Shown here: positions 38,920 to 59,496 of the stretch, one piece after another | How the letters are laid out: each line of letters opens with the position of its first letter | How positions within the stretch are numbered: the first letter of the stretch is position 1 | Origin: Entophlyctis helioformis | Taxonomy: Eukaryota > Chytridiomycota > Chytridiomycetes > Chytridiales > Chytriomycetaceae | Length of the DNA stretch: 64,000 nucleotides | Direction: 5' to 3' | Assembly (NCBI GenBank): GCA_025526915.1 | Contig: JAHLKH010000022.1 | Span: forward strand, 62,001-126,000 | Made by a program: the position numbers and the translations under genes | The notes under the pieces: model-generated | The model's input: only the letters and a program-made list of their open reading frames with translations | Database searches by the model: none | What the model was told of the DNA's origin: nothing

Positions 38920-41078
38920 TCAGAGCCGTACCCATGTGGCATAGTCTGGGCTTTCACACGCCTCGTACTCGGCAATCAGCTGCTGGACAACCTCTCTGCA
39001 GACAAGCCACGTGTGTCAGATCCATCACGCGCCAAGACCCACACAGCACACAACACGAGCAATACTGCTACAATCCAGCATACCGTGACGAGTCAAACTC
39101 CTCGAGCATGTCAACGCCAGAGGTTGTCTCGCGCTTGTACTGCTCCAAGAACGCATTGCGCTTGCGGAGCCGGTCGTACTGGTCAAGAATGCGTCTGAAC
39201 AGCTGCACAAGCAAAAGTCTGTCAGTACCATGCCGACATGTCAACGCAACGGCAATACTCGTTGCTCACATTTGCGATGCTGGTGTGGTTGGCGAGCATC
39301 AGTCCCGACACGCGGTGGGGAGTCTGCACATAGGGACTCTTGCGTGACAGGGCCACCTGGATACTGGCTGGACCCCAAGGAATGAACTGTGCCAGACGAC
39401 GCTCGCGGATGCGCAGCAGCGACTTGTGCACCTCGGTGGGATCTGCCTCGCCCTGGATGATGTTGAGGATCGAGATGTAGCAGGACCGCTTGGACTGGAT
39501 GGTCGACACCATTTTGTTGTTGGGCTGCAGCAGACGGCGCATGACATCCAGAACCGTGGTCTTGCGGATGCTCTTGGTCTGGTTGTCCAGGTGCAGCAAG
39601 AGAGTCGTCAGACGAGATGGGCATCGGCAAGTGCGAGAGAGGCTGCAGACTCACCTTGTCCGCTTGATCGCTTGTAAACGGCGTGTAGCTTGTCATGAGG
39701 TAGTGGCATCGCGGCGTGGGAATGAGCGACGCAATGAGGCCCACGAGGTCGTTGTTCATGTATCCAGGATAGCGGAGCGTGGTTGTGCTTGCGCTCATGA
39801 CCGTGGACACCTGCCACGGAGGGGATTGCACATGTCAGACCATGACCAAGAGGTGCGGTGAGATGGAGAGAAGGAGGATGCGATCGTACCAGCTGGTTTG
39901 TCTGAGCAAACGTCGGGTTCTGGATGTGCAGCATATCCGAGGCAATGCGGTTGAGAGCAGCATTGTCCAGCACGACCTGAGACGGATGGATCGCGCACGG
40001 ACACGGTCAGCACATACAGCATGCCGACAGAAGCAGCCAGCGACCAGACACTCACGACCGAGTCGGCGTTGTTGGTCAGACGCTTGAGAGAGAGCATCGA
40101 GTTGTATGGCTGCACGACGACATCGCTCGTCTCGGAGTTATTGGGAAAGACCGAGTAGGTCTGGATGAGCTTCTTGGGATACCTGTCGTTGAGGCACTCG
40201 AGCATGTACGATCCGAGGCCAGATCCAGTGCCGCCGGCGATCGAGTGCAGGAACATGAATCCCTGCCACGGCCCAGTCGGAGCCACGCACGGTCAGACAC
40301 GTATGGCCAGACACGCAGACACGTATGGTCAGACACATACCTCGAGCGAGTCGGAGCCGTCGGCCTCTCTGTCGACCATCTCCATGATCTGCTCCGAGAA
40401 CTGCTCGCCCTGCGAGTAGCCGTGGGCCCAGTTGTTTCCGGCACCGCCGCCCTCCTTGGACACCATGATGTTCTCTGGGTTGAACAGGTTGGCGTAGGGC
40501 GACTGCAGGATGTTGTTGATGACCTGCATGGAGGGGAGGCAGCCAACAGCCAGTCGTCAGTCGTCAGCCAGGCTGCAGCCAGACAAGCAGGCGACGGGCC
40601 ACTGCGCAGGTGGCAAGCGTGCCTGCATGGACAAGGCCGGCACGACGTACTCGAGGCTCCAGGTCGATGAGGATGGAGCGGGGGATGTAGTGCTCGTCGT
40701 CGGCCTGTCGTGGCAGATGCGGCTGTCAGTGCATAGAAGGCAGGCAGGCAGCAGGCAGGCACGCAGCCACGCCCACCTGGTAGAAGAAGACGTCCTTGCG
40801 GTCGCCGCTGCCCTCGGTCGCAAAGTCCTCGAGGATGCCGTCGGGGCGGATGCCGTGCTCGGCGCAGAGCATCGACCAGAACTCCTGCCCGACTGCGCGC
40901 AGTGTGAGCAGCGTGTGAGCGCGTGTGGGCAAGCGTGCCTGCAGCAGGTGTCCAGCTACTGCCAGCCTGCTACTGCCAGCCAGCTACTGCCACCGCAACT
41001 GCCAGCAGCCAAGCCACAGCGGCACCCACTCTGGTTGCCGCACTGGCCCGCCTGCAGCGTGATGATCTCGCGTGGCAT
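38920..41078 (-). CDS. TUBG: Gamma-tubulin
   Basis: Starts [16 protein letters not shown] at 41078 and ends [24 protein letters not shown] at 38920. About eight exons carry all tubulin landmarks: [20 protein letters not shown] (split by an intron), [16 protein letters not shown], the GTP-binding loop [51 protein letters not shown] and [35 protein letters not shown] and [20 protein letters not shown] are the gamma-specific blocks. It nucleates microtubules at the spindle pole and, in zoosporic fungi, at the basal body. The first exon is only 46 nt. No frame breaks were found. Confidence 0.96.
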
Positions 41079-41272
41079 TTGCGGCCTTGGACGTGTCTGC
41101 GCCAAGGGGCAGGTAATTGATATCGTTCCCATTGAGCACCCTGTGCCGGCACCTGATTGGTCGGCTGGTTTGCCTCGAATTTTGTTCAATTTGGCATCCA
41201 ATTTCCAATCTTTTTGAATCCAATTTCATATTCTTGTCCGAATTCCCAGTCACTCTGAGCAGCCTGCAGCCG
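41079..41272. promoter_or_regulatory. Gamma-tubulin upstream region with CCAAT box
   Basis: This AT-richer 190-bp stretch contains a CCAAT box on the minus strand (attgg at 41156-41160), about 80 bp upstream of the gamma-tubulin ATG. A possible plus-strand membrane-protein gene starts at its other end. Confidence 0.4.
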
Positions 41273-41754
41273 ATGCCTTCTCAAGTCGTGGTCGCTTTGG
41301 CGCTGGCTTGTGGACTGCTGAGCCTGTCCAGGGGCAGCAGTTGTCTGCGTGTTGGTAGTGTCACGAAGGACTGTCCTTCGACTGCCTGTTGCAGCTGTTG
41401 GCCTTCTGCGTCCAGTCGGCGCACTTGTGCGTGCTGCTGGGGCTGCCTGCTGCAATGTCCGAACAGTCAACGTCACAGCCGACACAGACGCACTGGCATC
41501 TGCTGCTGCTGGTGTCTTCCGCTTGCTTGGTGCTCCACGGCGGCTGGCTGTTGGCGTGGCAGCTACAGCAACGGCTGGCTCTCCAGGCTCGCCGTAACGT
41601 CCTTGCCGTCGTCGAGATTGTCAAGGCACACAGTGTCAACAGAGTCGCAACTGTTGACAGCCATCGCACAAGAGGCAGACGAGCTCACCAACAAGGACGT
41701 GGATGGATCACTCAGCGTATCGTTGAGCTGCTGCGTGTCGTCGAGCTGCTGTAA
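41273..41754 (+). CDS. Possible small membrane protein (low confidence)
   Basis: ATG 41273 opens a hydrophobic start (MPSQVVVALALACGLLSL). If an intron removes about 41347-41390 (ending gttgcag), a second exon adds LLAFCVQSAHLCVLLGLPA and HWHLLLLVSSACLVLHGGWL, two likely membrane helices. The reading then becomes uncertain; a Ser/Cys-rich or an Arg-rich end are both possible. I recognise no family. Splice sites are weak, so this is only a candidate. Confidence 0.25.
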
Positions 41755-43145
41755 GGCCTCGTGCTTGGCTTGGTCTGACTTTGAGAACTGTCGAGGCGAT
41801 ACACACAGAATGCCTGCAGCAATTCTGCTCACTCATGTCAACCTGTCCTGGCTGCCTTTGTGTACACAGCAAGGTCGCAGCGACGAGTGTCTTTGCAACA
41901 GCCAGCAGCGCAGGTGACCAGCAAGTCTTGCATTCAAGGCACGATGCCGTCGCACCCCGTCATCCACAGCCAACAGCCACGCCCACCTGACTTGTCAGCA
42001 TGCCCGCGAATGCAATGACGAGCAGCATGCACAGTCTCGGTCAACAACAAAGGGCTGATCGACTGCAGGCTGCAAAGAACAAGTCGCCCCAGACCTGCTG
42101 GCGACTGAAGTCAACAGCATCCAAAGTCGGCAATGAAGACACTGAGCCCAAGGAGAAACTCGCCTTGCACCATCATCACAAGAAAGTGCGACACATTTGT
42201 GAGATCTGGGATGACTACTCGGTCAAAGATTGGAGGATTGCCATGGTGTTGGTTGGCAATCTCTGTTCCAAAGAGCCGGATAGTGATATGGCGCATCTCA
42301 GTACTGCTCAGAGCACAAAGGAGGACTGGACATCAGGCTGGAGGTATTCACACGGATGAGATCTAGCAATTCCATGCGTACTTGGTGATTCCAACTGCGG
42401 CATGGACCCTATGAACAAAGCTGGATGGGCAACCAGTGCTGTGGCTACCATGCCAACACCCAAACCCCGTTGAGCATCAAGCAAGTCTTTGGTTGCTCAT
42501 TCAACCAAGGCATCCAGGTCTGCTATGGCACGGTTGTCTCTGCAGCACGCAAAAGAGTGCCGGCTGGATGCAAAGAGCGCCAGTTGAGCCTGCCACAGGA
42601 AGGAGAGCTCTTGGTGTGCCACCGAGTGGCCATCAAGCCACCACCTCCAAGATGGGCTGCATCAATGCCATCTGTTCACTGATCAGAGTGACTGTGTATC
42701 CATGAATATTCAAGTTGAGTTTGGTGTCAACTGATCAGATATCAAGGCGAGCCAGCTGCGCATGCTCATCGACAAGAGCACACGCCTCGTGCCAGACTCA
42801 CCGCCGAGGCCAGCTTGCCATCCACGACTGCGCTTGTGGAGGATGAGGCATGGTGATCTTTTGCAATCAACACTCCAGATCAACGCGTTCATGTGCCTGG
42901 GTCGCGTTTTGGTGACGCGCCACTGATCATGAATCAAACATTGCAAATCTCCGACACACAGATGTGATCATCTGTGGCAGTCGCAACAACACGGCCGCTG
43001 TGTTTGTCATAAAGAGAGCGGTTGGCCCGTCTGTTGTTGCTCGACCATCCACATACACTGATACATTTTTGACGAGACTCCCTGTCGCTCATTGCCCTCT
43101 TCAGCACACCCTTGCCTGTCCATAACGCAACCCCATACACACATA

Positions 43146-43187
<42 letters not shown>

Positions 43188-43261
43188 CGCACAATCACGC
43201 ACGCACAACCACACACACGCACACACAAGCACACGCACAACCGCGCACACACGAGCACGAC
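41755..43261. other. 1.5-kb region without a recognisable gene
   Basis: Open frames are short and none resembles a known protein. The end of the region is a CA microsatellite and degenerate cacacgcacaa repeats (43134-43260) directly before the ATG of the nuclease-Fanzor gene. The region may hold the left flank or promoter of that element. Confidence 0.4.
43134..43260. repeat. CA microsatellite and degenerate CA-rich repeats
   Basis: The sequence acacatacacacatacacac passes into an uninterrupted CA run and then into CACACG/ACGCACAA units. Confidence 0.9.
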
Positions 43262-43406
43262 ATGGGGGTCCCTGCGGTTGTTTCGTGTGTGGTGGAGAAT
43301 GGCGGCGGCAGCGTACACAAGGACGTGCCCTGGTCCTTGGTGTCAAAGCTTGTGCTTGGCAGCGCACGACTGTCACAAGATCCAAGCGACACCAACACGG
43401 CCACAC
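43262..43406 (+). CDS. First exon piece of the FEN/XRN-like nuclease-Fanzor gene (interrupted)
   Basis: This exon starts [16 protein letters not shown], like the conserved 'MGVPxFF' or 'MGI.GL' start of XRN and FEN/XPG 5'-nucleases, whose N-terminal residues take part in the active site. It breaks off after 145 nt at the left target duplication (cacac, 43402-43406) of the chromovirus. The frame stays open only two codons into the LTR. The other half of the same exon resumes at 50010, and its phase (1 nt + 2 nt) fits exactly. The start codon was chosen because it follows the CA repeat and begins the nuclease-like motif. Confidence 0.6.
43402..43406. other. Left target-site duplication (cacac)
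   Basis: Five bases directly before the LTR TG; the identical cacac follows the other LTR at 50005-50009. Confidence 0.92.
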
Positions 43407-43590
43407 TGTAGCACTGGGCCTCCAGACGGGCTTGCCGGCTGGTTGCAGGGGCAGTGAGTATGCACGCGAGGAAGGGCGGGCAGACGACTGCAAGAACGGG
43501 GGCAACCAGAGCGGGGGACGCGGCCGGGTGATGTCTGTCCGGTCACGTGGGTCACGTGGATCACGTGACCGCGACCGAGCATCCGTTACA
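43407..43590 (-). repeat. 3' LTR of the chromovirus (184 bp)
   Basis: It starts (minus strand) TGTAACGGATGC and ends GTGCTACA. It contains three closely spaced cacgtg E-box-like palindromes (tcacgtgggtcacgtggatcacgtga, 43543-43568). Compared with the 5' LTR it lacks a 72-bp insertion and differs at few other bases (for example t/c in gccggg[t/c]gatg). Confidence 0.92.
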
Positions 43591-46500
43591 CTCCCCCCAG
43601 CGTAGACAGCCACTTATAGGAAAGAAGAGTGGATGAACAGCGACTAAGAGGATGCAGGGGCATTGCACACACGAGAGGCAGAAGTGCGGGCAACGATGGA
43701 CGCATAGGACACAGGACGGGGAACCGTGCGCTCAGAGCGGCGAGGTGGGGCGGGATGGTTGAGAGGGGGGAGAAAGAGAGAGAGAAGGAAGGGGGAGAAG
43801 AGGGAGGAGGGAGAGGAGGGAAAGATGGAGAGAGAGAGGGAGACGCGGGTGCAGCAGGTGCGATCGGCTCGTCAGCCGGAGCAGGTGCCGCGGGCGTGGC
43901 TGCAGACGGAGCAGGGGCCACTGGTGCAGGAGCAGGCACAGTGCGCTTGCGGCGAGAGGACTTGGATGCCTTGGGCTGCGTGGGAGCAGGCGCCGCGGCG
44001 GGAGCGGGGGCAGCCGGTGCAGGAGCAGCGCGCGTGGGCTGAGCCGGTTTGGATGCCTTGCCTTTAGGCGCCTTGGACGGCCGAGCGTGGAATGCCTTGA
44101 CGAGGTCCTGGGCCTTGCGCATGTCGGCGGCTGGGACCCATGTGTTGTCGTCGGCTGGATAGCCAACCCACTTGACCAGATACTCGATCTTGCCGCGATA
44201 AGTGCGCGAGTCGACGATCCGCTCGACCTCGTAGTTGTCCGACGTGCCGTCGTCGGCGTGGTACTCGGGGTCAGGCCGGGAGGGCACATCCTTGCGGCCG
44301 GTGGGTGCAGACAGAGGGTCGACGTACGGGCAGATCCGGTCGGCATGGAACACGTTGTGGACGCGGTGCAGCGAGGCAGGCAGCGCGAGCGTGTAGTTGA
44401 GGCCAGATTCACCAGAGTCCAGGCTGGTGATGGCAAAGGGGCCGAGCCACTTGGCGGCCGTGAGCGGCGGGCGGTGCGAGTCCGCCGGCCAGGAGATGCC
44501 CTCAGCGTTGAGGAGCACCATGTCGCCGACCTTGTACGCAGGGTGACGGCGGCGACGCTTGTTTGCCTGGACGGCCATGGCCGCCTGAGCTTTGCGCCGA
44601 TTCAAAATGGCCGAGTCGCGGGCAGCGGCCATGTCCAGCAGCAGGTCGCGGGCCGCGGCAGATGGTGCCAGGGCCGGCTCGGACGGGAAGGACCGCGGGT
44701 GGCGGCCAAACGCCAGGAAGAGGGGGCAAAGCCAGACGACACAGACGGCGCGCAGTTGAGGCCAAAGCAGGTGGGACCAAGCAGCAGCGGCCAGTCAGAG
44801 CCGTGGTAATCGGCCGCCTTGGCGAGCGCATCCTTGATGGTGCGGATGCTGCGTTCGGCCAAGCCGTCAGTCTGCTGGTGGCGAGCCGTGCTGAGGTTCT
44901 GCTTGATCCGGGCAGCGGTGCAGAGGCTCGACCAGAAGGCCGACAGCCAGCGGGCGTCGCGGTCCGAGACGATGTCGACGGGGAAGCCCTTGCCCGAGCA
45001 GACCCAGCGAGTCAGGAAGAGCTCGGCCAGCTCCTGGGCCGACGACGAGCGGCGGCATGGGAACGCGTCGCAGAGACCGGACAGACGATCACCACGACCA
45101 GAGCAGCATCAAACGCATCGTCTTGTCCGCCCGCGGGCAGGAACATGACGTCCATGGCGACGCTCGAGAAGCAGTCGTCCGGGATCGCGAGTGGATGCAG
45201 CAGGCCGTCAGGCCGGTGGTTGGGCGTGTGGTGGCGCTGGCACACGTCGCATGAGGCGACATAGGCAGCAATGTCCTCAGACATTCTGGGCCAGAAGTAC
45301 CGGTTCGACAAGCGGCTGGTGGTCCGCTGACGTCCCTGGTGCGCGCCAAAGGGAGAGTCGTGGTAGTGGGCGAGCAGATCCGCGCGCAGAGACTGCGGCA
45401 CATACAAGCGGTTGCCTTTGTACCACCACGCACCATCCAAGCACTCCATGTGCACTACGACCTTGCGGTCGGCCGGTGTGGCTGACGACGGGTCAGCCTT
45501 CCAGCCAGGCAGTCTGGAGGCAATGGGTCGGCCGGCAACGCCGCACGCACGTCTTTCGCCCAGTCAGAGTCAGTGCGCAGATTGGCAGCACGGATCGGGA
45601 CAGGCGAGCGACAGTTTGTGCAGAGAGGGGCCTTTGAGGGATCGCGGGACAGCAGATCGGCCAGCGAGTTGAGCTCGCCAGGCACGTACTCAATGGATGT
45701 ATCAAACTCCTGCAGAGACAGGACCCATCGAGCCTGCCGATCCGACAGGTGGGGCTGCGTGGCCAACCAGACCAGCGCCTTGTGGTCAGTGTGCGTGACA
45801 GAGCGCACACTGGACAGCAGATGACGGAAACGCGAGAAGAACTCCACGATGGCGAGCAACTCGCGTTCGTGGGTTGGATAGTTCATCTCGGCTGGGCTAA
45901 GCTTACGTGACCAGCAGGCCACCAGCTTCTCGCCATCTGGGTGGATCTGCGACAGGTAGCCGGCAATGACGTAGTTGCTGGCATCAGTGTAGACATGCGT
46001 TTCCAGAGCCGGGTCAAAGAACCGCAGCTCGGTTGCCTTCAACACTGCCTGTCGCAGGTCTTCCACAGCCTGCTTTTGAGCAGGGCCCCATTCCCACTTG
46101 GCATTCTTGGCCAGTAGCTTGTATAGTGGCAAGCACATGGTGGCGTACGCCTTTGCAGGGTTCGGCCCACCAATGAATGACTTTAGCCACACAAGCTTAC
46201 CTAGCCAAGTTGCCAGAGTGGATGTGTTTGAGATGTGGGGGCTGCGCCATGTCCTGCAAGTGCTTTGGCGCAATGGAATAACCAGTGGGCGAGAGCACGT
46301 GACCGCAGAACTCAATGTCCTGCTGCAGGATCATGCACTTGACGGCTTAATGTACAATTGAGCCTCCAGTAGCAGCTTGAGAACAGTGCGTAGGTGTTTG
46401 ATATGCTCCTTGTACGTCGCGCTGTAGATGTAGATGTCATCCATGTACACCGAGACGCACGTGCCCAGCAGCTCATTGAGCGTCGACTGGATGGCCTGTG

Positions 46501-47649
46501 TAAACACAGCCGGAGCATTGGTCAGCCCAAAAGGCATGACCGTGAACTCAAAGTGACCAAACTGGGTGGAGAACGCAGTTTTCCACTGGTCCTCCGCCTT
46601 AACACGAATGTTAAGGAAGCCCTCGCGGATGTCAAGCATCGAGCGGAAGGGTTTGTTTGCCAAGTTATCACGGAGGGTCTCAATCTCCGGGATCGCACTG
46701 TGGAACTTCACCGAGATGTTGTTCAAGCCGCGGTAGTCGATGACCAACCGCAGCGAACCATCCTTTTTGCGGACAAAGAGCGTGCCGGCGCCCAAAGGCG
46801 ATGACGAGCGGCGGATGTAACCTTTGGTGTACCACTCGTCCAGCTGCTTCTTGAGCGCTACGGATGCATCCTGGTTCAGTTTCTTGAGGCCACGACGCGG
46901 CGGCAGCTGCGCATCCTTAATGAAAGGGATCGCGATCTCGAACTCCGAGTCGTGCGCACGGCCTTGCGGCGGGCAGCAGACCTCGTAGTACTCGATGAAT
47001 GCCTTCTGCGTCTCCTCGTCCGGGCAGACTGGAAGGTAGGGGTACTTCTCCTTCAGCTCGTCCGGGGTGAGGCCGTTTGCAGCCGCGACGCGAAGGCGCG
47101 CATCAGCAGCTGCCTCACGGTCCTCGGGCAGGTCATCCACATAGACCAGTTCCGCGTACTCGTCCGGATGGGCGAGGATGTCCGACATGGTAACCACGAT
47201 GTCAGAGTGCGGCCGGTTGTGGGGTGCAGCGACGGCGGAGCGTCTTCGTGCTGCCAGATGTGGTGCACATCGGGGCGCGACTTGGTCGAGAAGCGGAAAG
47301 ACACCGGACGGAAGTTGAACGACGCCTTTGCGGTCGTGCGCAGCCATGGCATGCCCAGGATGACCTCATCCACACCGTCATAGACGAGGAACCGCACCTG
47401 GCTGACAGCATTTGATCTGTCAGCGAGCGTGAGGTAGACCTCCGAATCAAGTCTCTGCAAGTTGCCGTTGGCAAACTCGAGAGTCACCGCCTGCCGGGTG
47501 AACGGCCGGGCAGCGGCGAGCAGGCCGTTGGCATCCAACCAACGGCGAGCTACCAGATTCGCGCTGCTGCCAGTGTCCACCAGGACACTGGCGCTGCGGT
47601 TGTCCAGGAACACTGGAAAGGTGCACCGGTTCTCTGTGATGGGCTTCAC
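43591..47649 (-). CDS. pol: Chromovirus pol: protease, RT, RNase H, integrase, chromodomain (frames interrupted)
   Basis: The retropepsin motif VLVDTGSSANLVARRW lies in the frame 47649-47053. Reverse transcriptase is in another frame (47347-46331) with KKDGSLRLVIDYRGLN, FSTQFGHFEFTVMPFGLTNA and the YMDD box VSVYMDDIYIYS. RNase H (46315-45455) has THVYTDASNYVIAGYLSQ and ELLAIV. Integrase follows with the H2C2 zinc site (SPFGAHQGRQRTTSRLSNRY, then CDVCQRHH) and core pieces down to about 44600. The final frame (44632-43591) carries a GPF/GPY-like segment (WLGPFAITSLDSGESGLNYT) and a chromodomain (YEVERIVDSRTYRGKIEYLV, KWVGYPADDNTWVPAADM), then a Pro/Ala-rich tail. Frame changes at about 47220, near 46320 and within integrase mean no full polyprotein is readable as given. 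Confidence 0.88.
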
Positions 47650-47705
47650 AGGAGCCAGGTGCCCCTCCTTCAGCGCGACGGCGGCAACACGGGTATGCAG
47701 GATGA

Positions 47706-49653
47706 TCAGGGCCCAGAGGGCATCTTTTTATTCGCAATGCCACCCAGAGGGTCACTCTTCTTCGTCTGCGTCGCTGTACTGCGTCCCGTCGTCTGAGAAC
47801 GACGAGACGGTTTCGAGCGACCGCGAGCCGGAGCCATTGCTGGTGCGCCGTCGTCACGGGCAGGGACCGATGGAGATTCGGTGTCAGCATTGGGCTTACG
47901 CACGGCTGCAGGCATAGCCGCCGAAGCGCGCTTAGCCGCAGGAGCAGGAGGAGCCAGAGGGGGCGAGCGAACATACCCGGGTGCCTTGGCCTTTGCCGCA
48001 ATGCGCCCGACCTTAGAGTGGGGCGGGCGCTGGCTAGGCGATCGGCCAGCATGGTCGGCTGTCGCAGCAGGCGAGGCAGCCTTACGCGTCTCAGACGCGC
48101 TGTTGTTGCCGGAAGGCGCAGGAGTGGCAGCCTTGGGCGATGAGGAGCTCCAAGAACGCGGCGGCGCGGCAGCCGTCTTGCTCGGGCTGGGCTTCGACTT
48201 GGGCTCAAGGGCCTTGGCGGCGGCCGCCTCGGCAGTGGCCAACGCGGTTGACTGCTTGTGGTTGGCCTTCCGCGTGTGCAGGGCCATGAGGTACTCACGG
48301 ATGGCCGCGTACGAGGAGAACGTTTCCGAGGGCGCCGCCTTGAGGCGGCCCAGGATGAAGTCGATCTTGAGCTGCTCCGTGTGGCCGGCGACCTTGAACA
48401 GCGCCTCAGCGCGGGGTACCCAGTCCTGGGGGCCCAGCCGTGGCACAACAGCGGCGGGAAGTCGGAGGCGAGCTTGGCCTTGGCGCCAATCCGGGCCGAG
48501 TCCTGGTGCGTGTAGGTCGACCGGAGGTGCTCGAGGAAGCGTTGAACGTAAACGACAAGGCGTCGGCCTTGTTGTCGCCATACCAGGTGGTGACCTCCTG
48601 GAGCGCGGCTCCCTGGAAGGCATTCAGGAGCTGCCCAAAGATCCGCGGCATGGGAATCGAGGTGCACGACAGCGACTCGCAGGTGTTGCCGTAAGCCATC
48701 TCGATGGCGAGGGCGAACGGCTTGAAAGCCGCGTGGGTGGCCGTCCAATCGACGTCCATTGAACCGTCAACCATCACAAAGCCCTGGAATGGCGCGAGCT
48801 TGCTGCCCAGGTTGTCTGCAAACAGCTTGGCAGGGCTGCGGGCATCCACCGAGGGTCCAGACGTGAGGGCCGGACGCGAGTCCACCGAGGACCCAAGCGC
48901 CTGGACCGGATGCGCAGCCTGCAGGGCGGCTGTGGCTGAGGCCTGCGCCAACGCGGCGTTTGCCGTTTTGGTGGCCTTGGCGACGGCATCCGAGAGGGCC
49001 TGCTCCAGTGCGATCACGGATTCCGACGTGTTGGCGACGCTCTTCTGCAGGCCCTGTATGGCCTCTGAGTTGGCCTCGACGGAGTCGAAGAGTGCCACCA
49101 TGCGTTGGTGGTGGAGCTGGATGGCATTGGAGTAGGCCTCGGCCTGCCTGGCGGCCATGTCGCGGTCCGACCGCAGCTGAAGCCGCAGATCGTCGATGGC
49201 TGCGTGGGCAGCGGCCGCAGACGACGTGGTCGCCTTGAGCGCGCGGCCGGTGTCGAATGTCACCGTGCCAAGGCGTGCCAGCTCTGCAATCATGTAGTCA
49301 TCGACTGTGGTGCCAGGCTGCTCAGGGCGGCTTGCGGCGCCCGGCTGGGCGGCCGGCGTGCTGGAGAGGAACGCCTCTTGGTGCCGACCGGAACCCGCAT
49401 CGTGGCGGCCCAACAGGTCGGCCGAGGATTGGCGGCGCGCCGCTGAGGCGCCAAAAGACACGCCCAGAGCAGAGTCGGCCATCAAGGCGGACGACGTACC
49501 CGCAGGGTCGAGGCGGCGCTGGAACCTTAAGGGGGTGGCGTCAATGAACGAGGGGGCCGTATCGAATGAGGCCTCGCCGAGGAGGTCCTGGTCGGTGCCT
49601 GAGGGGGCGGCGACCGAGTGAGCCGAGGCCCTGGGCGAATGCTCGACGGCCAT
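47706..49653 (-). CDS. gag: Chromovirus gag-like protein (two frame changes)
   Basis: Reads from ATG 49653 (MAVEHSPRASAHSV). The N-terminal half is a coiled coil (about 49150-48960). The capsid-like part contains FALAIEMAYGNTCESL and VTTWYGDNKADALSFTFN. At about 48540 the conserved reading moves to FLEHLRSTYTHQDSARIG, and at about 48450 to LGPQDWVPRAEALFKVAGHT, each explained by one missing base. The C-terminal part is basic and Pro/Ala-rich to a stop at 47706. No CCHC zinc knuckle was seen; some fungal chromoviruses lack one. Confidence 0.7.
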
Positions 49654-49748
49654 CCGAAAAAACGGAAAAATCGACGGAAAAATCGACGGAAAAATCGATC
49701 GACGGCGGCGGGAAACGGCGGCCGACGGCGTCGAAGGGGGGTTCTTGC

Positions 49749-50004
49749 TGTAGCACTGGGCCTCCAGACGGGCTTGCCGGCTGGTTGCAGGGCAGTGAGT
49801 ATGCACGCGAGGAAGGGCGGGCAGACGACTTCATTGAGACATAGGCACGGACCTGGTTGCAGGGGCAGTGAGTATGCACGCGAGGAAGGGCGGGCAGACG
49901 ACTGCAAGAACGGGGGCAACCAGAGCGGGGGACGCGGCCGGGCGATGTCTGTCCGGTCACGTGGGTCACGTGGATCACGTGACCGCGACCGAGCATCCGT
50001 TACA
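49749..50004 (-). repeat. 5' LTR of the chromovirus (256 bp, internal tandem duplication)
   Basis: Same ends as the other LTR, but with about 72 extra bases (49834-49907). The block gcagtgagtatgcacgcgag...gcagacgact occurs twice, separated by tcattgagacataggcacggacctggttgcag. The rest is almost identical to the 3' LTR. Because the two LTRs of a new insertion start identical, the duplication arose after integration or through an assembly or recombination event. Confidence 0.9.
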
Positions 50005-50009
50005 CACAC
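50005..50009. other. Right target-site duplication (cacac)
   Basis: Matches 43402-43406. Its presence shows that the element integrated here as one unit. Confidence 0.92.
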
Positions 50010-52994
50010 CCAGCCACTGCGGCGCTTTCCTTGTCGATGTGATGAGTGTGTGTTTTCCGCACTTCAGGAGAGGAGGGTCCGATCACCCGTTGTCAAAGGC
50101 CGAGTGGATACCGATCCTCAAGCCGGTACTCAGCTTGTTCACAGACAAGTTTGGCCCCGAGTACGCCTACATGTTCCACGTTGACAGCAGGCTCGGCGAC
50201 TCTGGGATTAAGATTGTCCACAAGGGCCGTGCGATCAAGGTCCTGAATGCGGTGGGCACAGTTCTACGGTGTATTCGCAGACGCCGCAAACGCAAGAGAT
50301 ACAAGCGCTTATCCAAGTATGTCCACTTTGTCCTGCCGCATCGAGGCGATTCTAACTCTCAGCCAATGATCCAGGAAAGAGAAGCGTGCGCTGCTGCTCT
50401 CGTTCACGCTCACGCACAATGACAAGCAGCTGATTTACGAGGCAATCGCGGAGATCTTCAGTTCTGAGCCGCGGCGTGCAGTATGCTGGTGCAAGCACGA
50501 AGCGGACATTTGCATTGCCCGCCATGTAGCCTACCATGCAAGCAAGCCAAGGTATAGATCGCCATGGCAACTGTCTGTTTTGATCGACAGCTAACAGTCT
50601 TTGTCTTGCAGCAGCGACATTCCCATTGCCGTCATTTGTAACGACTCTGATCTCGTGGCACACTGTGCTGGACGTTGTCCTGTCATCATGATGTCCACGC
50701 GGAACGCGGAGGCCACCAACCTGCGGTCTTTCAACCATTCAGGCATCGTATCTCTTGCGTCTGCCCTCGGAGTATACGAGTTCCCTGGAGCTTGCCAACT
50801 TGTGGTTGCGTTGAGCAAGAGTGACTATTTCGATTGCTACGGGCGTGGTGCGTGCGATTCCTGTCTTGATGCTCTGTATTGTCGTCCAAACTGTGGTGTT
50901 GACTAACACGTGTTGCTACTCACATTGTCTTGCAGGTCTGCGCACCGCCGTCAACACCGTCAACAGGTACGTTGAGGAGGCGGCGCACAAGAGGAATATC
51001 ACGCCAGAGGAGTTCTGTGCCCTGCTCCACACCCCCAAGATTGCCAGCGACTTCAAGAAGGATGTCAGGGCCGCCTACTCTGACGAGTTGTTGGCGATCG
51101 GAGGCGAGGACCTCGTCAAGTCGTTCCTCAACGCCTTCTCCGTTTTCGTGTACCACGACGAGTCGGGAAACATTGCCAGCCAGTTCAAAGCCCCAAGCAG
51201 CAACAACGGTCAATCTGGTGATGTGCAAGGGCAGAGGCAAGTCATTGCATGACTGGCCAAGCACGTGGCACTGTAGATGCATTTGCAAGCATAGAACCAT
51301 ACTGACCACCCATTGCTACGTGGCAATGACAGCAGCCAGGCTGCCAACACGACCGCCGCGGCTCAACCAAGGTACGCATGCATGCGATCTCTTGAAGTCT
51401 CTCACATTGCTGACTCTGCATTCCTGTCTTTGATGTCATCAATGCATCATGGTGCAGATGCTCATCTGCTGGCTGCCTCCTTGTACACTCCAAGTGGCAA
51501 GAACGCAATCCTGATTCCGACATTGTGCACCTGACGCAGAAGGATATCGACGGGCACCTCGACAAGATTGTCAACAACGGCGAAATGGCCACAACTTTTT
51601 ACGAGGTCAAGCGATGTCCGATTGCATTCGACTGCATTGTCAAGCACGTGCCAGGTTACCTTGCTCGCAACCCCGATGGAGTCGCGGGCCGAGATATTCT
51701 AGCCAAGATCAGCAGGACAGCAAGTGCGCAGCTGTTGGAGCTTGTCCATGAGCAATCCCTTTTACCGACAGTTCGCGCAGAGCTTGGCCCTATTGATCGG
51801 CTTGTTTGGGACACACATGTACGTTATGGCATGACTTGGATGCATGTGCATCTCTCACCTTGAACTGTCTAACTCAATCCGCTGTGCATCGGACAGGGCG
51901 CCGCTCGGAGGATGAAGGTGCAGCTGGGCAAAATTGTGAATCCTTGCTGCGTATCCTTTCAGGATATTTCAACTCCACGTACGTTTGGCTTGCATTGGAA
52001 TGACTCGACGCCATGTACTGACAACACCTTCTTTGCTGAATGTGATATTCAAGAACCAAAAACGCAGCCAGGCACGCAGAAAGGCAAGCAAAAGCCCAAG
52101 CAGAAAGGCAAGCAGAAAGGCAAGGTCATCAAGCAGGACGATCCCCAGAAATCCTTGGCCGAGATCCACAGAAAGGCCACCGAACGGCTGAACGACCTGA
52201 AATCTCGCACGGATGGCGAATCAGTGACACTTGTCGAGCAGCTGAAAGAGGCCACCGAGATGCTATTTTTGATCATCAATCAACCCTCGGTGCGTCTTCA
52301 TCTTGACTGTCTGTGTGCGCATGCAATGACTTGTCGCAATCACTCATTTCTCCAATTGGCAGGCGGCTCCATCTAGAAAGCGGCACAAGCGGCGTAAGCG
52401 ACCACAGCCATCTGTTGACGCTCAGGTGGAAGAAGCACAGCCCGTGGTCTTTTCTCTCAATCGACATTTAGACACCAAGACGACGGTTAGTTCTGATGTA
52501 CCATTGGTGCTTGCATATGCATTGTGTGCACTCGGAATGCATTGCTCATGCTGCATCCGACCTCCACAGCCACGACTTCAATTCACAAAGAAGCAGGAGG
52601 CCGCGCTCATGAAGAGTAGCGCATTGCAAGCTGCAAAGGCCGCGACACTGAAGGCCATCAAGGCCAACAAGGGAAAGTCAAGCCGGTTTGCCCGTAGTAG
52701 TTTGCCTGGTGGCTCGAGACATGGGTAAGTGATGTATGCTGTGCCATTTGCCTTGAGTACTCTTGCTGACATACGTGTTTTGGCAGAATCGTGCGTCGCT
52801 CACGATGGGCACTACATCTGCTGATTCGAAAGCTGGGTCGCACTGTTACAGGGCCACTCATGTCCCTCTCTGCGGCGATCGGCAGCAATGATCAACAAAC
52901 GGCAGAGCAAGCAACCAATCAACCTGCTGTGGATGCGCCAGATCAGCCAGCCGTGGACGAGCCTGATCATCGTGGCGCGAGAGTGCTGCTTGAG
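50010..52994 (+). CDS. FEN/XPG-like 5'-nuclease (PIN-type) part of the nuclease-Fanzor gene
   Basis: Exons 50010-50316, 50375-50551, 50612-50847, 50936-about 51240 and several more join in phase. The first continues exon 43262-43406 with GAFLVDVMSVCF, fitting the first catalytic Asp of FEN/XPG nucleases. Next come CKHEADICIARHV (the XPG-I 'EAD' pair), VICNDSDLVAHC (the 'DSDLL' motif) and ALSKSDYFDCYGRGLRTAVN, which parallels the 'gnDY..GIG..tA' turn before helix-two-turn-helix. So at least four acidic active-site positions appear present. Later exons are Lys-rich (QKGKQKPKQKGKQKGK) and coiled, ending ARVLLE before a phase-0 intron into the Fanzor part. The product would be a structure-specific DNA or RNA 5'-nuclease. 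It could be a separate gene, but no stop is forced before the next exon. Confidence 0.65.
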
Positions 52995-53070
52995 GTATGG
53001 TTCAGGATCGCCATTCTGCCTGCATGCATGACTTTGCATGGACTGACTCAGAGGTTGGCGTGGTGCGCAG

Positions 53071-56000
53071 AAAATGTTGTCGGGCGATCCAGGAAGCGCC
53101 AAGGTCTATGGCATCGAAGCCAGGAAGACGCCAAAGAAATGGACGCGGCGTCTGATCATCGAGGACACATTCGTAAAGGTGTACTCATTCATCGTTGGTC
53201 TTCGGCACGCTGGGTTCGTTGTGATTGGCGCCATCGTCGAAGAGATGCTCGATCTTGTCCCGGATGCCCTGCTCCCGCCCAAGTACCACGTGTACAAGTG
53301 GATCGATGACAAGACGACGCGGTATTGTTTCTTGGACCTTGATTTCAAGGGCATCAACGACCTGGGCGACCATGCCAGCATCAACGGCCTCGGCGGCGTG
53401 ACCAAGGCGGAGCTCTTGTCAGGACGATTCACCCTCGGAAAGGACATCACCGCCCGCCTCATGTACGGCTCGAGTTTGTACAATCACAAGAGCAAGAAGC
53501 CTCGGTATGGCCATCCGGTGCAACTGGCGACGGGTACAAGACTCGAGATCTGTCTGCACAAGCAGCCCAATCAGCCTGATCAGCCTGCAGCAGCAGCACC
53601 AGCAGTGCCGACATCCAACCAGCTGTTCACGGCACTCATCAACAGCACCTCGGGTGGTGAGACAACTGTGGCCTGCATCTTTCGCCACCTGTCGTTCATT
53701 TTCACCGGCAAGGAGATGGCCAAGCCGCAGCATGACATGGACACGATCAATGCATGGGTCGTCACTGTCATGCAGTTGATGATCCACCGTGCATGGACGC
53801 GCGGGATGGTGCAGGCCAGTGCGGACAAGATGTATGCGGACAAGAATGGCGCGCAGCAGGCCGACACAATCCAGACGGACATGCAGCAGGACGTCACGTA
53901 TCAGGCAGCTCTACCATACCGCCTGGACGACACTCTCTGTGGGAGCGCGACGAATGACATCTTCAGCAACCTCGCCAGAGAGGTGAGCACCATACTCGCG
54001 CGGCACTACATTGTAAGTCAGTTGACCTGGCGGTTGGTGCAGCCATCAAGCTTGCTCCCGGAATGTCTCGCGAGCAGGCGAAAGAGTTGGTTCAATCCCT
54101 GTTCGATGAAGCCGATGCCGCCAAGGCTGCTGCTGCCAAAGCCGCCAAGGCTGCTGCTGCCAAAGCCACCGCGCCAAGACCATCGGCGGCCAAGAGAGGG
54201 AGACAAACGAGTGTGGCGTCAAGCACTGAGGACACCGCGTCAAGCCCGACGCAACCCAAGAGAGCAAGGCGCAAGAGTGCAGTGCCAAACCCATTGTCGG
54301 CCGATCTTGACACCACCCCTCCTGCAACAAGCCACGAGCAGACCGCGTCAAGCTCATTGTCAGCCAACAAGGGCGGCAGGCCCAAAAAGGCACGCGGCAA
54401 GAAGCCGGCCGCCAAGGACGCCGCAGGGAACAAGAGCGCTGTCGTGACCCCGCCAGCATTGCACAAGCTCGTGGCCATCATACGCAACATGTCGCTGTCG
54501 ACTGTTGGACGCTTCAAGCAGCTGCGCGATCTTGCTGGAAGAGAGAGCATCAAGCTCTGTCCTCAAGCGGCAAGTCGTGATCCCTTTGTTCTTATCACCG
54601 AGACCGTCCTCTTCTGGGCGGTTATGGGGCTGAAAAGGGATCGCATCAGCGAGGAGCAAGATCCCGTCTTGCGAGCATTGAGATCGGAGCTTCTTGCTGC
54701 CATAAGTCAGTCACACTGCCTGTCTATGCCATCTTTTTATGATTTGATGCTAACAATCCACTCGTCTCAAAGAGCCTGGCTGGCTTCTCAAAGAGCTTGA
54801 CTGGAAAGACTCGGAGCTTGCATTGCCCAACAAAGCCATCGAGAAGGCGTTCAGTTCAAGTGACGAGCTGTGCGTCATGGATCTCCTCCTCCCTGGACTC
54901 GCCTCCGATACACGACGCTATCAAACGCCAGCGCAGGCCAAGTTGCAGATTGACCCAGCCGACACCGTGGAAGAGGCCAGAGCAACTCCTGATGTGACAC
55001 AAGAAGCCAAGGCTGACGATCTTCAACTGGACGACAAGCAGTCGGCGGACTTGATCAAGGCCAAGGTTGATGCTCTTCCTCAAGTGCTACCAACCAAGTC
55101 GGTCAGATTTGGCAGCATCAAGACCGACGGGAAGAGTGTCTTTCAAACTGTTCTGGAGTTTCGCACAAACCGTCCAAAGTCACCTCGCAGTATGTGGCGT
55201 GCTTGGATGCTTTGGTGCACGCATTGATTCTGACCACTGCCTTGCTCTGCAGATCCCAACGCGGCGACTTCAGACGAGCAGCCCAGTCACGTTGAGGATG
55301 CTGATGACTCTGATTCTGACGATGACTTGGATGACGATGACTTGGATGATGACTTGGATGATGTCCTTGATGGCGAATGTGAGTTGCTGTGCCAATCCAG
55401 ACGCGCACTTGTTGACCACACCGACTGACATGCCATTCACAGCCGCCAATCCAGCCAACCCGTCAGCCGCCAAGCCATACACACCCAATCCTGTAAGCCA
55501 CTTGCATGCCAACCTCGCGCATTGGTGCACATGCATTGCACATTCCTCACTCATGCCATGGCATGACAGGTCAAGCGCAACTTTTACGCCTCGCAGCGAC
55601 TGCCCGATGTTGCTGATGCCAACAAGCTGCTCGCCAACAAGGACTTTGTTCGCGTTGTCAGCTTTGACTGGGGCGAGCGGTACCTGTTTGGCGCGTCCAG
55701 CATGCTAGTCAATGTCAAGGAGGAGACATACACGCTGAGGCCAACTACGTGCTCTCCTCTGGCGTATTTCATGCTGAGCGTGACCTTCAGCGGTGGTATG
55801 CATGCAATGACTCTGCCACATGCACTCTTGACCAGATCAACTCACAGCACTGCCTCTTGTGCCAGGCTCAACAATCGATATGCCAAGGCGACCGACGTCC
55901 ACGAGGCCATTGCATTCAAGACAGCAAAGCATGCCGATCCAGACGCCACAGCAGGCAGAGAGCCTTTTGGGATCTGCGCTGCCATGCGTACTGCACGCCA

Positions 56001-56932
56001 TTCCTGAATGCACGGGTACGTTTTCTCTGTTTCTGGATGTCCATTGACATGGCCGCCATGCTGCTTGATCGCCTGCTGATTGCACTGGATGGCATGGCAT
56101 GACATGGCATTCCACAGAAGGTCAAGGACAAGCGGTTTGCCATGCGCTGCAAGCGCATGTCTGATCGCGGAAACGCTCTTGAGGGCATCATGAAGCTGGC
56201 AGGATCGAAACTAGATATCGCGCATCAGCTGCATCTCAAGGCCTCCCTGTCAGCAACCCTGAGAAGGACATTCCCGTTGTCTGGGCATTTGGCATCGACT
56301 TTACAGGCCAAGGTGGCCGGCACGCTGTGTTTGAGAAGTTTCTCATCAGGCATCTGCGGTCGTCTGGATATGCCTATGTGCGTCTGATGCCACGCTGTCC
56401 ATCCATCCATCCATCCATCTGTGCACCAACTGACCACACACACACACACACACACACACAGATCTACCGCTGCAACGAGAACCTGACCAGCCAGATGTGC
56501 CCGCAGTGCAAGCAGCGGATCCCATACGAGAACCGCACCAACCTGCGACGCTACGAGTGCACAGACTGCGAGACTGTCTACCACCGCGATGTGCTTGGAG
56601 CCACCAACATCGGAATGGTTGCACTGGAGCATCTGCTTTTTGGACAACGGCCGCTCTACTTGACGCACACGCCAGTCGATCCGCCTGTCGTCCAGCAGCC
56701 TCCAGCACCAGATCCGCCTGTCGTCCAGCAGCGTTCTAGACACGCCATCAAGCGACGTCTAGAACCAGATCCGACGGTCGACCAGCAGCGCCCAAGACGT
56801 GCCATCAAGCGGCGTCCAGCACCGGATCCGCCTGTCGTCCAGCTGCCTCAGCACCGGATCCGCCTGTCGACCAGCAGCGTCCAACACGCAGACAGCGTGC
56901 CAGCAAGTCAAGTGCCACTCCACGTGCTCTGA
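53071..56932 (+). CDS. Fanzor (eukaryotic TnpB-like RNA-guided nuclease) part of the gene
   Basis: Starts KMLSGDPGS (own ATG at 53074 possible). An N-terminal region of about 600 residues, including basic AKA repeats, precedes an acidic linker. RuvC-I is VVSFDWGERYLFGAS (about 55650-55695). RuvC-II is VVWAFGIDFTGQGG, lacking the TnpB Glu. The last exon (56462-56932) has NENLTSQMCPQC...CTDCETVYHRDVLGATNIG: a CX2C/CX2C zinc ribbon, the displaced Glu before 'TS' typical of Fanzor, and the RuvC-III Asp. The C-terminus has imperfect repeats of PDPPVVQQ and RAIKRR. Frame changes at about 55736, 55960 and 56240 each fit one missing base. Fanzors cut DNA guided by a noncoding RNA and ride on transposons. 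No transposase or terminal inverted repeat was identified. Confidence 0.8.
56378..56461. repeat. Intron with catc and CA microsatellites
   Basis: The last intron of the Fanzor part is made largely of catc units followed by a CA run ending in the cag acceptor. Confidence 0.8.
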
Positions 56933-57180
56933 CTTCCAGCACAACCACCAACACTTTGAATCGGGGCACCTCCCGATCGACCTAACGGGTCACTTATCAC
57001 ATCATTGTTCAAACAATGGTGCAAGGTGAGCATCTCGCTGGTGTGCCACGCCCGCCTGTCGTCGCATGCTCGTTGCTGACTCGAACCTTCCATCGTGTGA
57101 TGTGCTGCTTGCATTCGTCGCCTCTCGGGTCGAATCCAATTCCAAAACGCTTGGTAATTGTTTGAATGTCCGGCCATTTG
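56933..57180 (+). ncRNA. Candidate guide-RNA (omega/fRNA) region downstream of Fanzor
   Basis: Fanzor guide RNAs usually arise from the noncoding sequence next to the 3' end of the gene and run to the element end. This 250-bp stretch has no coding frame. It contains a perfect short hairpin (cattgttcaaacaatg, about 57003-57018) and GC-rich blocks that could pair (for example the cggggcacctcccgatcg region near 56962). The assignment rests on position; the structure has not been computed. Confidence 0.2.
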
Positions 57181-57684
57181 CCGGCGGTTTGCCGGCATTC
57201 CCTCGCCCTATTGCCTACCCCTCGTCTGCGCCAAGCTGAGTGGTGGACAACAATTCGCCTGCACAACTGCCGCCCGCCTGCCGCCTGCCTGCCGCATGCA
57301 CATCGCCCACGGCCTACCCCTCGCACCTCGACCGCATGACCGCAAGCAAAGCTTCGTGTGCCAGCCTTGTGCCAGCAGCGCTCGGTGCACAATCTCAGCC
57401 ATCAGTGCACCACATGCGTCGTCACATGCCCGCCGCTGCCTGATGCCGTCCCATGGTATCTCGCATGCAGCGACTGTCCGTCCGTCCGTCTGTCCGTCCG
57501 TCCTTGCTTCACATCGCATCGCATCCCATCGCATTGTCCGACTTTGCTTCCGGGGCCCCGAGCCAGCAGTGCCAGCCCCGTTGCCCTGCCAGGACACAGG
57601 CCAAGCCACAAGAAAACTACCAGCAGCCGCAAAAACGCTTCCGAGTTCAGCGCAACTTTCCCTCACCGCCATTGTCTGACCGCC
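57181..57684. other. Intergenic region before the zf-RVT gene
   Basis: It holds ttgccgg repeats (about 57175-57200), cctgccgc repeats (57275-57300) and gtccgtcc repeats (57475-57510). The frame of the next gene is open upstream, but the first plausible ATG is at 57685. Confidence 0.4.
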
Positions 57685-57897
57685 ATGCCGACCGCCAGCC
57701 ATCCCGAGCCGCCCACGACCTGGCTGCGCCAACAGCCCCAGCAGCCCCAAATCCAGCCGCGCATGTCGAGCATCAACCACGCCCACGGTGCACGGCGCTC
57801 GCTGCATTCGTCGTCGTCATCGTCGTCGTCATCGGCAAGCCTCGACGCCCGCTCTGTATCGAACGGCGTGCACCCCGCGTCGTCGCTCCAGTCGGCC

Positions 57898-57934
<37 letters not shown>

Positions 57935-59496
57935 CGCACCGTGCCGCATGCGCCAGATCCCGTTGGATGCAGACGCTCGGCCCCGTCGACTTTGACGCCC
58001 TCTTCGAAGCGCTCGAGTCGGACGCCCGCACCCACACCGAGGCGTCGCTCATGTGGAAGCTGCTCGCTCGGCGGCTGCCCGTGAACAGCTATCTGCGCAG
58101 GCGTCCAGCGCCATCATCATCATCGTCGTCATCGTCACCGTCGCCCGCACCGCCCGCTGTGGATCACGCGCTGGACACCGCCATGCCAGCGCCCGCACCG
58201 GCCTCGTTTTCCGCTCTCCCAGCGGCAACGGGGGTAATGGCTGAACTGCCACACACGTTGCCGCTGCCGCTCCACGTGAACGTCTCCCCAGCCATTCCTG
58301 CGCCATCAAGATCCGCCGCCGTCCAGCACGACAGGCAAACTGCGCCAGCAGCCACGCCAACCGAGACAGCTGCTGTCGCCACCGCCGTCGCTGCCACTGC
58401 CGCTGCCGCTGCTCGTCCCTCGACCCCTGATCGCAGCAGCCCCTTGCCTGCGGCCCTGTGCGTTGAACCCTTCCACAGCTGCCAGCGGTGCCACGCGCCT
58501 CTCGAGACAATCGAGCACGTCTTCTTCGAGTGCCCTGCCATCGCCTCGTTCTGGCCGGCGTTCAGGAAGCAGTTCCTGGCCGTCATCGGCATGTCCGACG
58601 CCGAGTTCCCCGCCATCGATCTGCGCGCCGTCGTCTTCTTCTTCCCAGAAACCCGCAACGCCTTGTGCGCCGAAGAGCTACATGCCCTGCAGGTCATGCA
58701 TTCGATCGCCATCTGGTGTCTGTGGTCTGTCCGCTCCATGACCGATGCTGATCCCCGCTTCATCTGGTCGTCGTTCCTGAGCCGTCTGCACGCCCGCATC
58801 TCTCTCGAGTACAGCAACGCCATCGCGGCTGACGACACAGCCATCACCGCCATTCCGTCGCCCACGCTCTCCAGTGCACCATCCGCCGAGATGCGTGTCT
58901 CTGGCGCATTCTCCCTCTCGCAGTCAACGCTGACGGTTGGAGCGGGACGCGACGATTCTCCTCCCGCCTCGCCGACGGCATCGCAGCTGTCGTCGGTTGG
59001 GTCGGTCTGGTCCAGTTATAGCCAGTCGGCTGCAATGTCGGTCGCGGCCAAGCGCAGACTGAGCCCGACCTACGGCACGATCGGTGTCAGTGCACCAGGC
59101 AATCCACGCCAGCATCGCTCTCGCAGCATCTCGGCCAACTCGGCCATCCTGCCGCCACTGTACGAGAGTCCATACGACCACCAGCAGTCCTCGTCGCAGA
59201 TCCAAGACAGTCAGCACCACTACCAGCACCACCAGCTGTACAGCCAGAGCAGTGTCAGCAGCTCGCAGCTGTCGCTCTCGCCATCGCAGTACTCGCAGCT
59301 GTCGATATCGCCCTCGCGATCATTCATGTACCCGCACGCCAAGAAGACTCTGCCAGGCAGCAGGCCGTCGTCTGTGCAGTCCCACTCGCAGCTGTCGCGC
59401 TTTATCGCGACATGGAGCAACAACGGCAGCACGCCGATCGTGGCCATCACGCAGACTGGACTCGCGTTCCGTGCAGTGCCATCCATCTCTGTCTGA
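57685..59496 (+). CDS. Low-complexity protein with an RT-type zinc knuckle (zf-RVT)
   Basis: A single exon of 603 residues. Poly-Ser, poly-Gln (57902-57933) and Ala/Pro-rich stretches surround two conserved pieces. ASLMWKLLARRLPVNSYLRR resembles the helix before the zinc-binding domain of non-LTR retrotransposon reverse transcriptases. CQRCHAPLETIEHVFFEC (CX2CX8HX4C) is the zf-RVT knuckle, followed by the family's aromatic WPAFRKQF. No reverse transcriptase, endonuclease or RNase H is present. The C-terminal 200 residues are Ser/Gln/His-rich. It may be a domesticated LINE remnant used as a nucleic-acid-binding protein; an open 1.8-kb frame argues for selection. Function unknown. Confidence 0.6.

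Follow-up and report, generated by a model that had tools for sequence, protein, structure and literature searches.

A candidate fusion of FEN-like and Fanzor-like nucleases in a transposon family of the chytrid Entophlyctis helioformis

Does a single gene of the chytrid fungus Entophlyctis helioformis join a FEN/XPG-like 5' nuclease to a Fanzor, or do two separate genes lie side by side? The question was raised by a first-pass annotation of 64,000 nucleotides of contig JAHLKH010000022.1 (assembly GCA_025526915.1, positions 62,001 to 126,000, hereafter the window), in which positions 43262-56932 were read as one such gene. Fanzors are RNA-guided nucleases of eukaryotes and relatives of CRISPR-Cas12. 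Here, the locus was analyzed together with its sibling copies in the whole assembly (29,569,594 bases in 482 contigs). The coding region belongs to a transposon present in many copies, the unit in the window extending over 41104-57223 and so being wider than originally claimed. The observation of a joined FEN-Fanzor arrangement appears largely right for the repeat family, but not for the copy in the window.

Linkage of the two halves and the junction between them

Exons of the FEN half were matched at least 213 times in the genome, and 134 of these matches were used for clustering, giving 78 loci. For the Fanzor half, 205 zinc-ribbon candidates were obtained genome-wide, 150 of which were scored, all above the Pfam cut-off. 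At 36 of the 78 FEN loci, a zinc-ribbon match in the same orientation follows 4.9-8.3 kb downstream. When the marker set was widened, partly by hand, to include RuvC, right-end and terminal-repeat markers, a same-strand downstream Fanzor marker was present within 9 kb at 48 of the 78 loci and at 9-14 kb at 8 more, giving a total of 56, while the chance expectation for linkage within 9 kb is about 3%. No opposite-strand marker occurs within 9 kb at any of the 78 loci among the matches listed. For 17 of the remaining 22, a contig end is under 5.2 kb away. The other five (C32, C52, C427, C60 and C292) have sufficient room and no marker among the matches listed. Chance neighbourhood of FEN and Fanzor exons is therefore rejected, as a same-strand Fanzor marker no more than 14 kb away accompanies 56 of the 61 FEN loci that have sufficient room. 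In a set of 20 loci, 12 carry exons from upstream as well as downstream of the junction, with order and strand preserved, some with linker exons only. The other eight carry Fanzor exons only, two of them (L011 and L013) having a FEN locus 11-12 kb upstream, beyond the stretch that was fetched.

The two halves meet at a short intron. In all 11 copies read, the upstream exon ends in phase 0 and is followed by a GT-AG intron of 76-84 bp and then by the Fanzor half. The phase-0 join that had been proposed for the window is borne out: the exon at 52787-52994 ends in phase 0, the intron GTATGG...GCAG occupies 52995-53070 on the plus strand, and the next exon continues in phase 0 from 53071. In the more distant of the 11 copies, the exon after the junction is only 29-54% identical to its counterpart in L029. 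If the intron were retained, the first stop codon would fall at eight different positions across the 11 copies, from codon 2 to codon 105, and therefore no common end of a separate FEN gene can be recognized. Moreover, one copy, L029 (C15), with its splice sites placed by hand, provides 1,729 codons in 16 exons with zero stops, running from MGIIGQS through the FEN half and the junction to RuvC-I. Its alignment to a 2,025-residue reference, which is mostly L029's own protein, contains one frameshift.

It should be noted that all 11 copies have an ATG no more than six codons away from the junction, on one side of the intron or the other, and therefore a separate second start could be used. The transposon would then carry two tandem genes, one FEN-like and the other a Fanzor that starts independently near the junction, and their two proteins would perhaps cooperate. 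The absence of a shared FEN stop speaks against such an arrangement, as do the conserved splice sites and phase and the single short intron that separates the halves, and we regard it as rather unlikely. For the family, the phase-0 intron, the constant order and strand and the frame of L029 give good support to a single gene, and it is probable that the sister copies encode one protein. The claim of a single fused gene does not hold for the window copy, which is disrupted.

Identity of the two halves

All FEN/XPG-like and Fanzor motifs quoted in the first-pass annotation were confirmed, with the qualification that SKSDYFDCYGRG and LRTA become contiguous only via splicing of an 88-bp intron (50848-50935). 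The N-terminal half contains seven acidic active-site residues in the order of the FEN/XPG superfamily (FEN1, EXO1, XPG, XRN, T5 FEN, Asteroid). D58, D108, D196, D221, D223 and D281 are invariant, and E194 is present in nine of ten members. We take this to be the pattern of FEN1, and the Met-Gly start is presumably also a trait of the superfamily. A fold was predicted for this half without exon 4, where the H3TH DNA-binding element would lie, and the top 22 Foldseek matches were all nucleases of the FEN/XRN type, with weak scores. T5 FEN was the top match, and EXO1, XRN1, Rat1 and XRN2 were also near the top. In the proposed check of the N-terminal half by structure prediction, a FEN/PIN-like fold is thus weakly supported. 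Purifying selection on the FEN half is shown by the ratio of nonsynonymous to synonymous substitution (dN/dS), which is 0.21-0.43 in nine diverged pairs between subfamilies.

Searches at the level of sequence returned nothing comparable. In the PDB, a single FEN-half query gave no credible match, and the best match of a profile was ribosomal protein L23 (0.13). A protein database gave no match among 8000 candidates scored, and searches of PHROGs and of viral and prokaryotic contigs yielded nothing of use. The sequence is too distant from the superfamily for Pfam and PDB thresholds and differs from it in being joined to a Fanzor and borne by a transposon.

In the C-terminal half, the zinc ribbon that had been proposed is confirmed by the OrfB model PF07282, at 41.6 bits against a cut-off of 26.3. 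It shares an exon with RuvC-III (NENLTSQMCPQC...YHRD, 56462-56932, plus strand), the 3' end of which is that of the open frame in the window copy. The Fanzor1/TnpB motif D-X(125,275)-[TS][TS]XX-C4-X(5,50)-RD (PMC3627910) is present in the L029 reference, with 191 residues from D to TS, followed by C4 and RD. A TDG motif is described in the WED domain of Fanzor1 (PMC10711439), and the corresponding exon is placed at 54773-55189 (plus strand, exon ends set by eye). Among 18 copies, which were chosen by their DWG tripeptide at RuvC-I, TDG was found in 13, SNG in three and neither in two. The RuvC-I exon lies at 55570-55795 (FDWGERYLFG) and the RuvC-II region exon at 56118-56377 (VVWAFGIDFTGQGG), both on the plus strand, and in the latter region NENLTS fits the alternative RuvC-II glutamate by eye. 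A PDB sequence search with the Fanzor C-terminus returned only two matches, with E values of 0.13 and 0.86, to unrelated molecules. The protein database, with 8000 candidates scored, gave no match for the Fanzor half, and structure prediction for the exon directly following the junction reached a pLDDT of 44 and a pTM of 0.27.

Two observations weigh against assigning the halves to these families without reservation. No XPG or exonuclease model of Pfam was matched above its cut-off by the FEN half, XPG_I_2 appearing in five of ten members with a best E value of 0.029; the half is therefore named FEN-like. At RuvC-I, DPG is described as nearly exclusive in Fanzors (PMC10711439), and DWG, not DPG, was found in all 19 readable copies of the 22 listed. 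The C-terminal half is therefore called Fanzor-like, and we consider it a divergent branch. The FEN/5'-nuclease identity is supported by the catalytic-type residues, weakly by the predicted fold, and not by the Pfam models.

Element ends, the right-end RNA and the possible role of the fusion

Homology between siblings breaks off sharply at both ends of the element. In the window, the ends are marked by terminal inverted repeats AAGGGGCAGGTAAT at 41104-41117, which is also the start point of siblings L012 and L014, and ATTGCCTACCCCTC at 57210-57223. These are flanked by a 9-bp target-site duplication (TSD), GTCTGCGCC, at 41095-41103 on the left and 57224-57232 on the right. The two flanks agree at nine of nine positions here and at 8, 7, 6, 2 and 2 of nine in five further pairs. 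The terminal-repeat pattern GAGGGGYRGGCAAT occurs 103 times genome-wide, compared with 0 for the reversed control. MULE transposase (PF10551) gave no match in the whole genome, and therefore the element was not filed as MuDR. A transposase in the left part (41117-42679) was also considered and rejected, as its six open reading frames (ORFs) had no Pfam match at E 0.1.

Other arrangements of the ends were also observed. A second class of right ends terminates at ...ATCGGGCC, lacks the inverted repeat and is bordered by unrelated flanks; it accounts for six of 21 right ends (L010, L011, L015, L017, L024 and L028). L022 and L024 differ in their right ends, their coding parts being almost the same. 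L014 (C40:2609-5050) is short, retaining the inverted repeats of both ends and little of the coding part, and resembles an internally deleted element.

Following the stop codon, a noncoding region of approximately 220 bp (56954-57174, plus strand) is conserved, with a mean column identity of 82% in 18 copies. It folds into hairpins, in which two of 42 predicted pairs are changed on both sides, and its folding energy is lower than that of shuffled sequences by 1.6 standard deviations in the window and 2.9 in L029. A known RNA family was rejected for this region (the E values of the two matches were 3.3 and 4.7, and both fell far under the gathering scores), as was a tRNA, since none was found by a tRNA search. 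The region is a candidate for a guide (omega) RNA, occupying the position expected of one in a Fanzor system. Within it, AGGTTCGAGTCA at 57077-57088 (minus strand) resembles the Pol III B box, going by what we take to be the consensus. Furthermore, a comparison of 56118-57223 with siblings L009-L029 shows the last Fanzor exons to be near-identical between subfamilies even at synonymous sites, with a median pS of 0.11 versus 0.64 for the first exon after the junction. The 3' module, together with the conserved right-end RNA, seems to have been exchanged or homogenised between subfamilies.

We propose that the transposon, with its inverted repeats and 9-bp TSD, bears one long spliced gene, the product of which in sister copies would have approximately 2,000 residues: a nuclease resembling the FEN/XPG superfamily at the N-terminus, connected by a linker to an RNA-guided nuclease of Fanzor-like type at the C-terminus. 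Downstream of the stop codon and before the right end of the element comes the candidate for a structured noncoding RNA. In the cell, the junction would be spliced and the right-end RNA would guide the Fanzor half to cut matching DNA, for example the empty site after excision or an element-free allele. The FEN half would then trim the 5' ends or flaps of the break, and the exposed 3' tails would lead repair to copy the element in. We hold this statement as a whole, mechanism included, to be slightly better than an even proposition. That a single polypeptide both cuts and resects, amounting to a eukaryotic form of RNA-guided homing, is in itself a tentative suggestion, possible rather than probable. 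As to how Fanzors benefit the elements that carry them, a natural fusion whose FEN half is under purifying selection points to a possible processing of ends after the cut, which would steer repair. Either active site could be removed, and such a role is therefore testable.

The MuDr-like elements ROr-4, PBl-3 and MCi-4 of Mucorales carry Fanzor1 (Bao and Jurka 2013, PMC3627910) and, like the present element, combine a Fanzor with terminal inverted repeats and 9-bp TSDs, with no MuDR transposase. In contrast, the protein encoded here is far longer, has DWG at RuvC-I and belongs to an element whose inverted repeats are short. In the main text of that source, the terms XPG, exonuclease and fused have no occurrence, and no FEN-type domain is named in the passages considered. 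SPu-1 and SpuFz1 of Spizellomyces punctatus likewise represent a fungal transposon-borne Fanzor1 with C-terminal RuvC and zinc ribbon, which is an RNA-guided DNA cutter (PMC3627910; PMC10432273). In SPu-1, there are 633 residues in one exon and TA target sites, whereas the present gene has approximately 2,000 residues, many exons, a FEN half and a 9-bp TSD. Man-made fusions, T5exo-ErCas12a and EXO1-Cas9, have been reported (PMC8945719, PMC11107001), in which a 5' nuclease of the FEN superfamily is attached to an RNA-guided nuclease, as here, where T5 FEN heads the fold matches. The present join is natural, with a Fanzor as the partner, and in view of this likeness, a natural fusion might be a source of such tools in evolved form. 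A Fanzor fused to a FEN-type nuclease was not found in the part of the openly available literature that was searched.

If the fusion is real, its FEN-like domain might act on RNA instead, trimming the transcript of its own gene to yield the right-end RNA and so making the guide RNA. Relatives of the XRN type degrade RNA, beginning at its 5' ends, and the best fold matches include XRN1, Rat1 and XRN2 as well as T5 FEN and EXO1; the RNA candidate is also located immediately 3' of the coding region. DNA nucleases come first in the fold ranking, though the two groups cannot be told apart by score, and we consider the RNA-acting role unlikely. The FEN-like domain could also serve movement of the element, such as end processing at insertion, its join to the Fanzor reflecting a shared transcript only. 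The AcademX nuclease is of XPG type. Within the Academ superfamily, helicase-encoding and nuclease-encoding lineages differ in TSD length, and the latter provide a precedent of nuclease-carrying transposons (PMC10045372). The failure to find a MULE transposase in the genome, or a Pfam family for the six left-part ORFs, would also suit such a role. However, no transposase was recognized alongside the domain, and AcademX has TSDs of 3 or 4 bp and no RNA-guided nuclease, compared with 9 bp and a Fanzor here, which makes a role in movement quite improbable. Finally, frameshifts and stops in the window copy and its siblings might suggest a decaying, functionless family, linked merely through co-amplification. 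Diverged FEN halves nevertheless retain their catalytic positions under the selection described above, and 12 of 20 FEN loci align free of frameshift or stop across at least three introns, so that decay of the whole family appears very improbable.

The window copy and its surroundings

The copy in the window is, judging by its sequence, a dead relic. Positions 43262-52994 had been taken as a plain run of exons, which is incorrect: exon 1 is interrupted by a Ty3-type long terminal repeat (LTR) retrotransposon on the minus strand (43407-50004), foreign to the system. Its LTRs start at 43407 and 49749, and its TSD, CACAC, is found at 43402-43406 and 50005-50009. Siblings L009 and L023 represent the empty site, their alignment being continuous over the insertion with the 5-bp overlap CACAC. 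Minus-strand ORFs inside the insertion match the RVT_1 and Chromo models, the Ty3 type being assigned by eye.

The first part of exon 1, which begins MGVPAVVS, occupies 43262-43406 and is uninterrupted in the same two siblings. The FEN-like catalytic exons, established from the spliced alignment and the acidic positions, extend over 50005-51236 and consist of the remainder of exon 1 (to 50316), 50375-50551, 50615-50847 and 50936-51236. Linker exons leading to the Fanzor half follow at 51333-52994. The long first exon after the junction (53071-54705, end set by eye) is shifted in this copy. All of these exons are on the plus strand. The Fanzor half is frame-shifted relative to siblings, and the spliced alignment from 49991 onward requires 10 frameshifts and 2 stops. 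Because of these defects and the LTR insertion in exon 1, the window copy cannot make the fusion protein.

Several minor features were also observed. Positions 51237-51332 form a GC-AG intron (AG/GCAAGT), likewise in L009, L023 and L029. Between the first conserved domain of the Fanzor half and the TDG exon, a linker that varies in length, is rich in Ala and Lys and resembles histone H1 is present at 54085-54450 and in L029. Outside the element, the start codon of a minus-strand tubulin gene (matching the Tubulin model of Pfam, and gamma-tubulin by eye) lies 26 bp from the transposon (41078-41104), which is thus situated upstream of it. On the other side, an ORF of 718 residues (57340-59496, plus strand) adjoins the element, with a zf-RVT match under the cut-off (E 0.0015).

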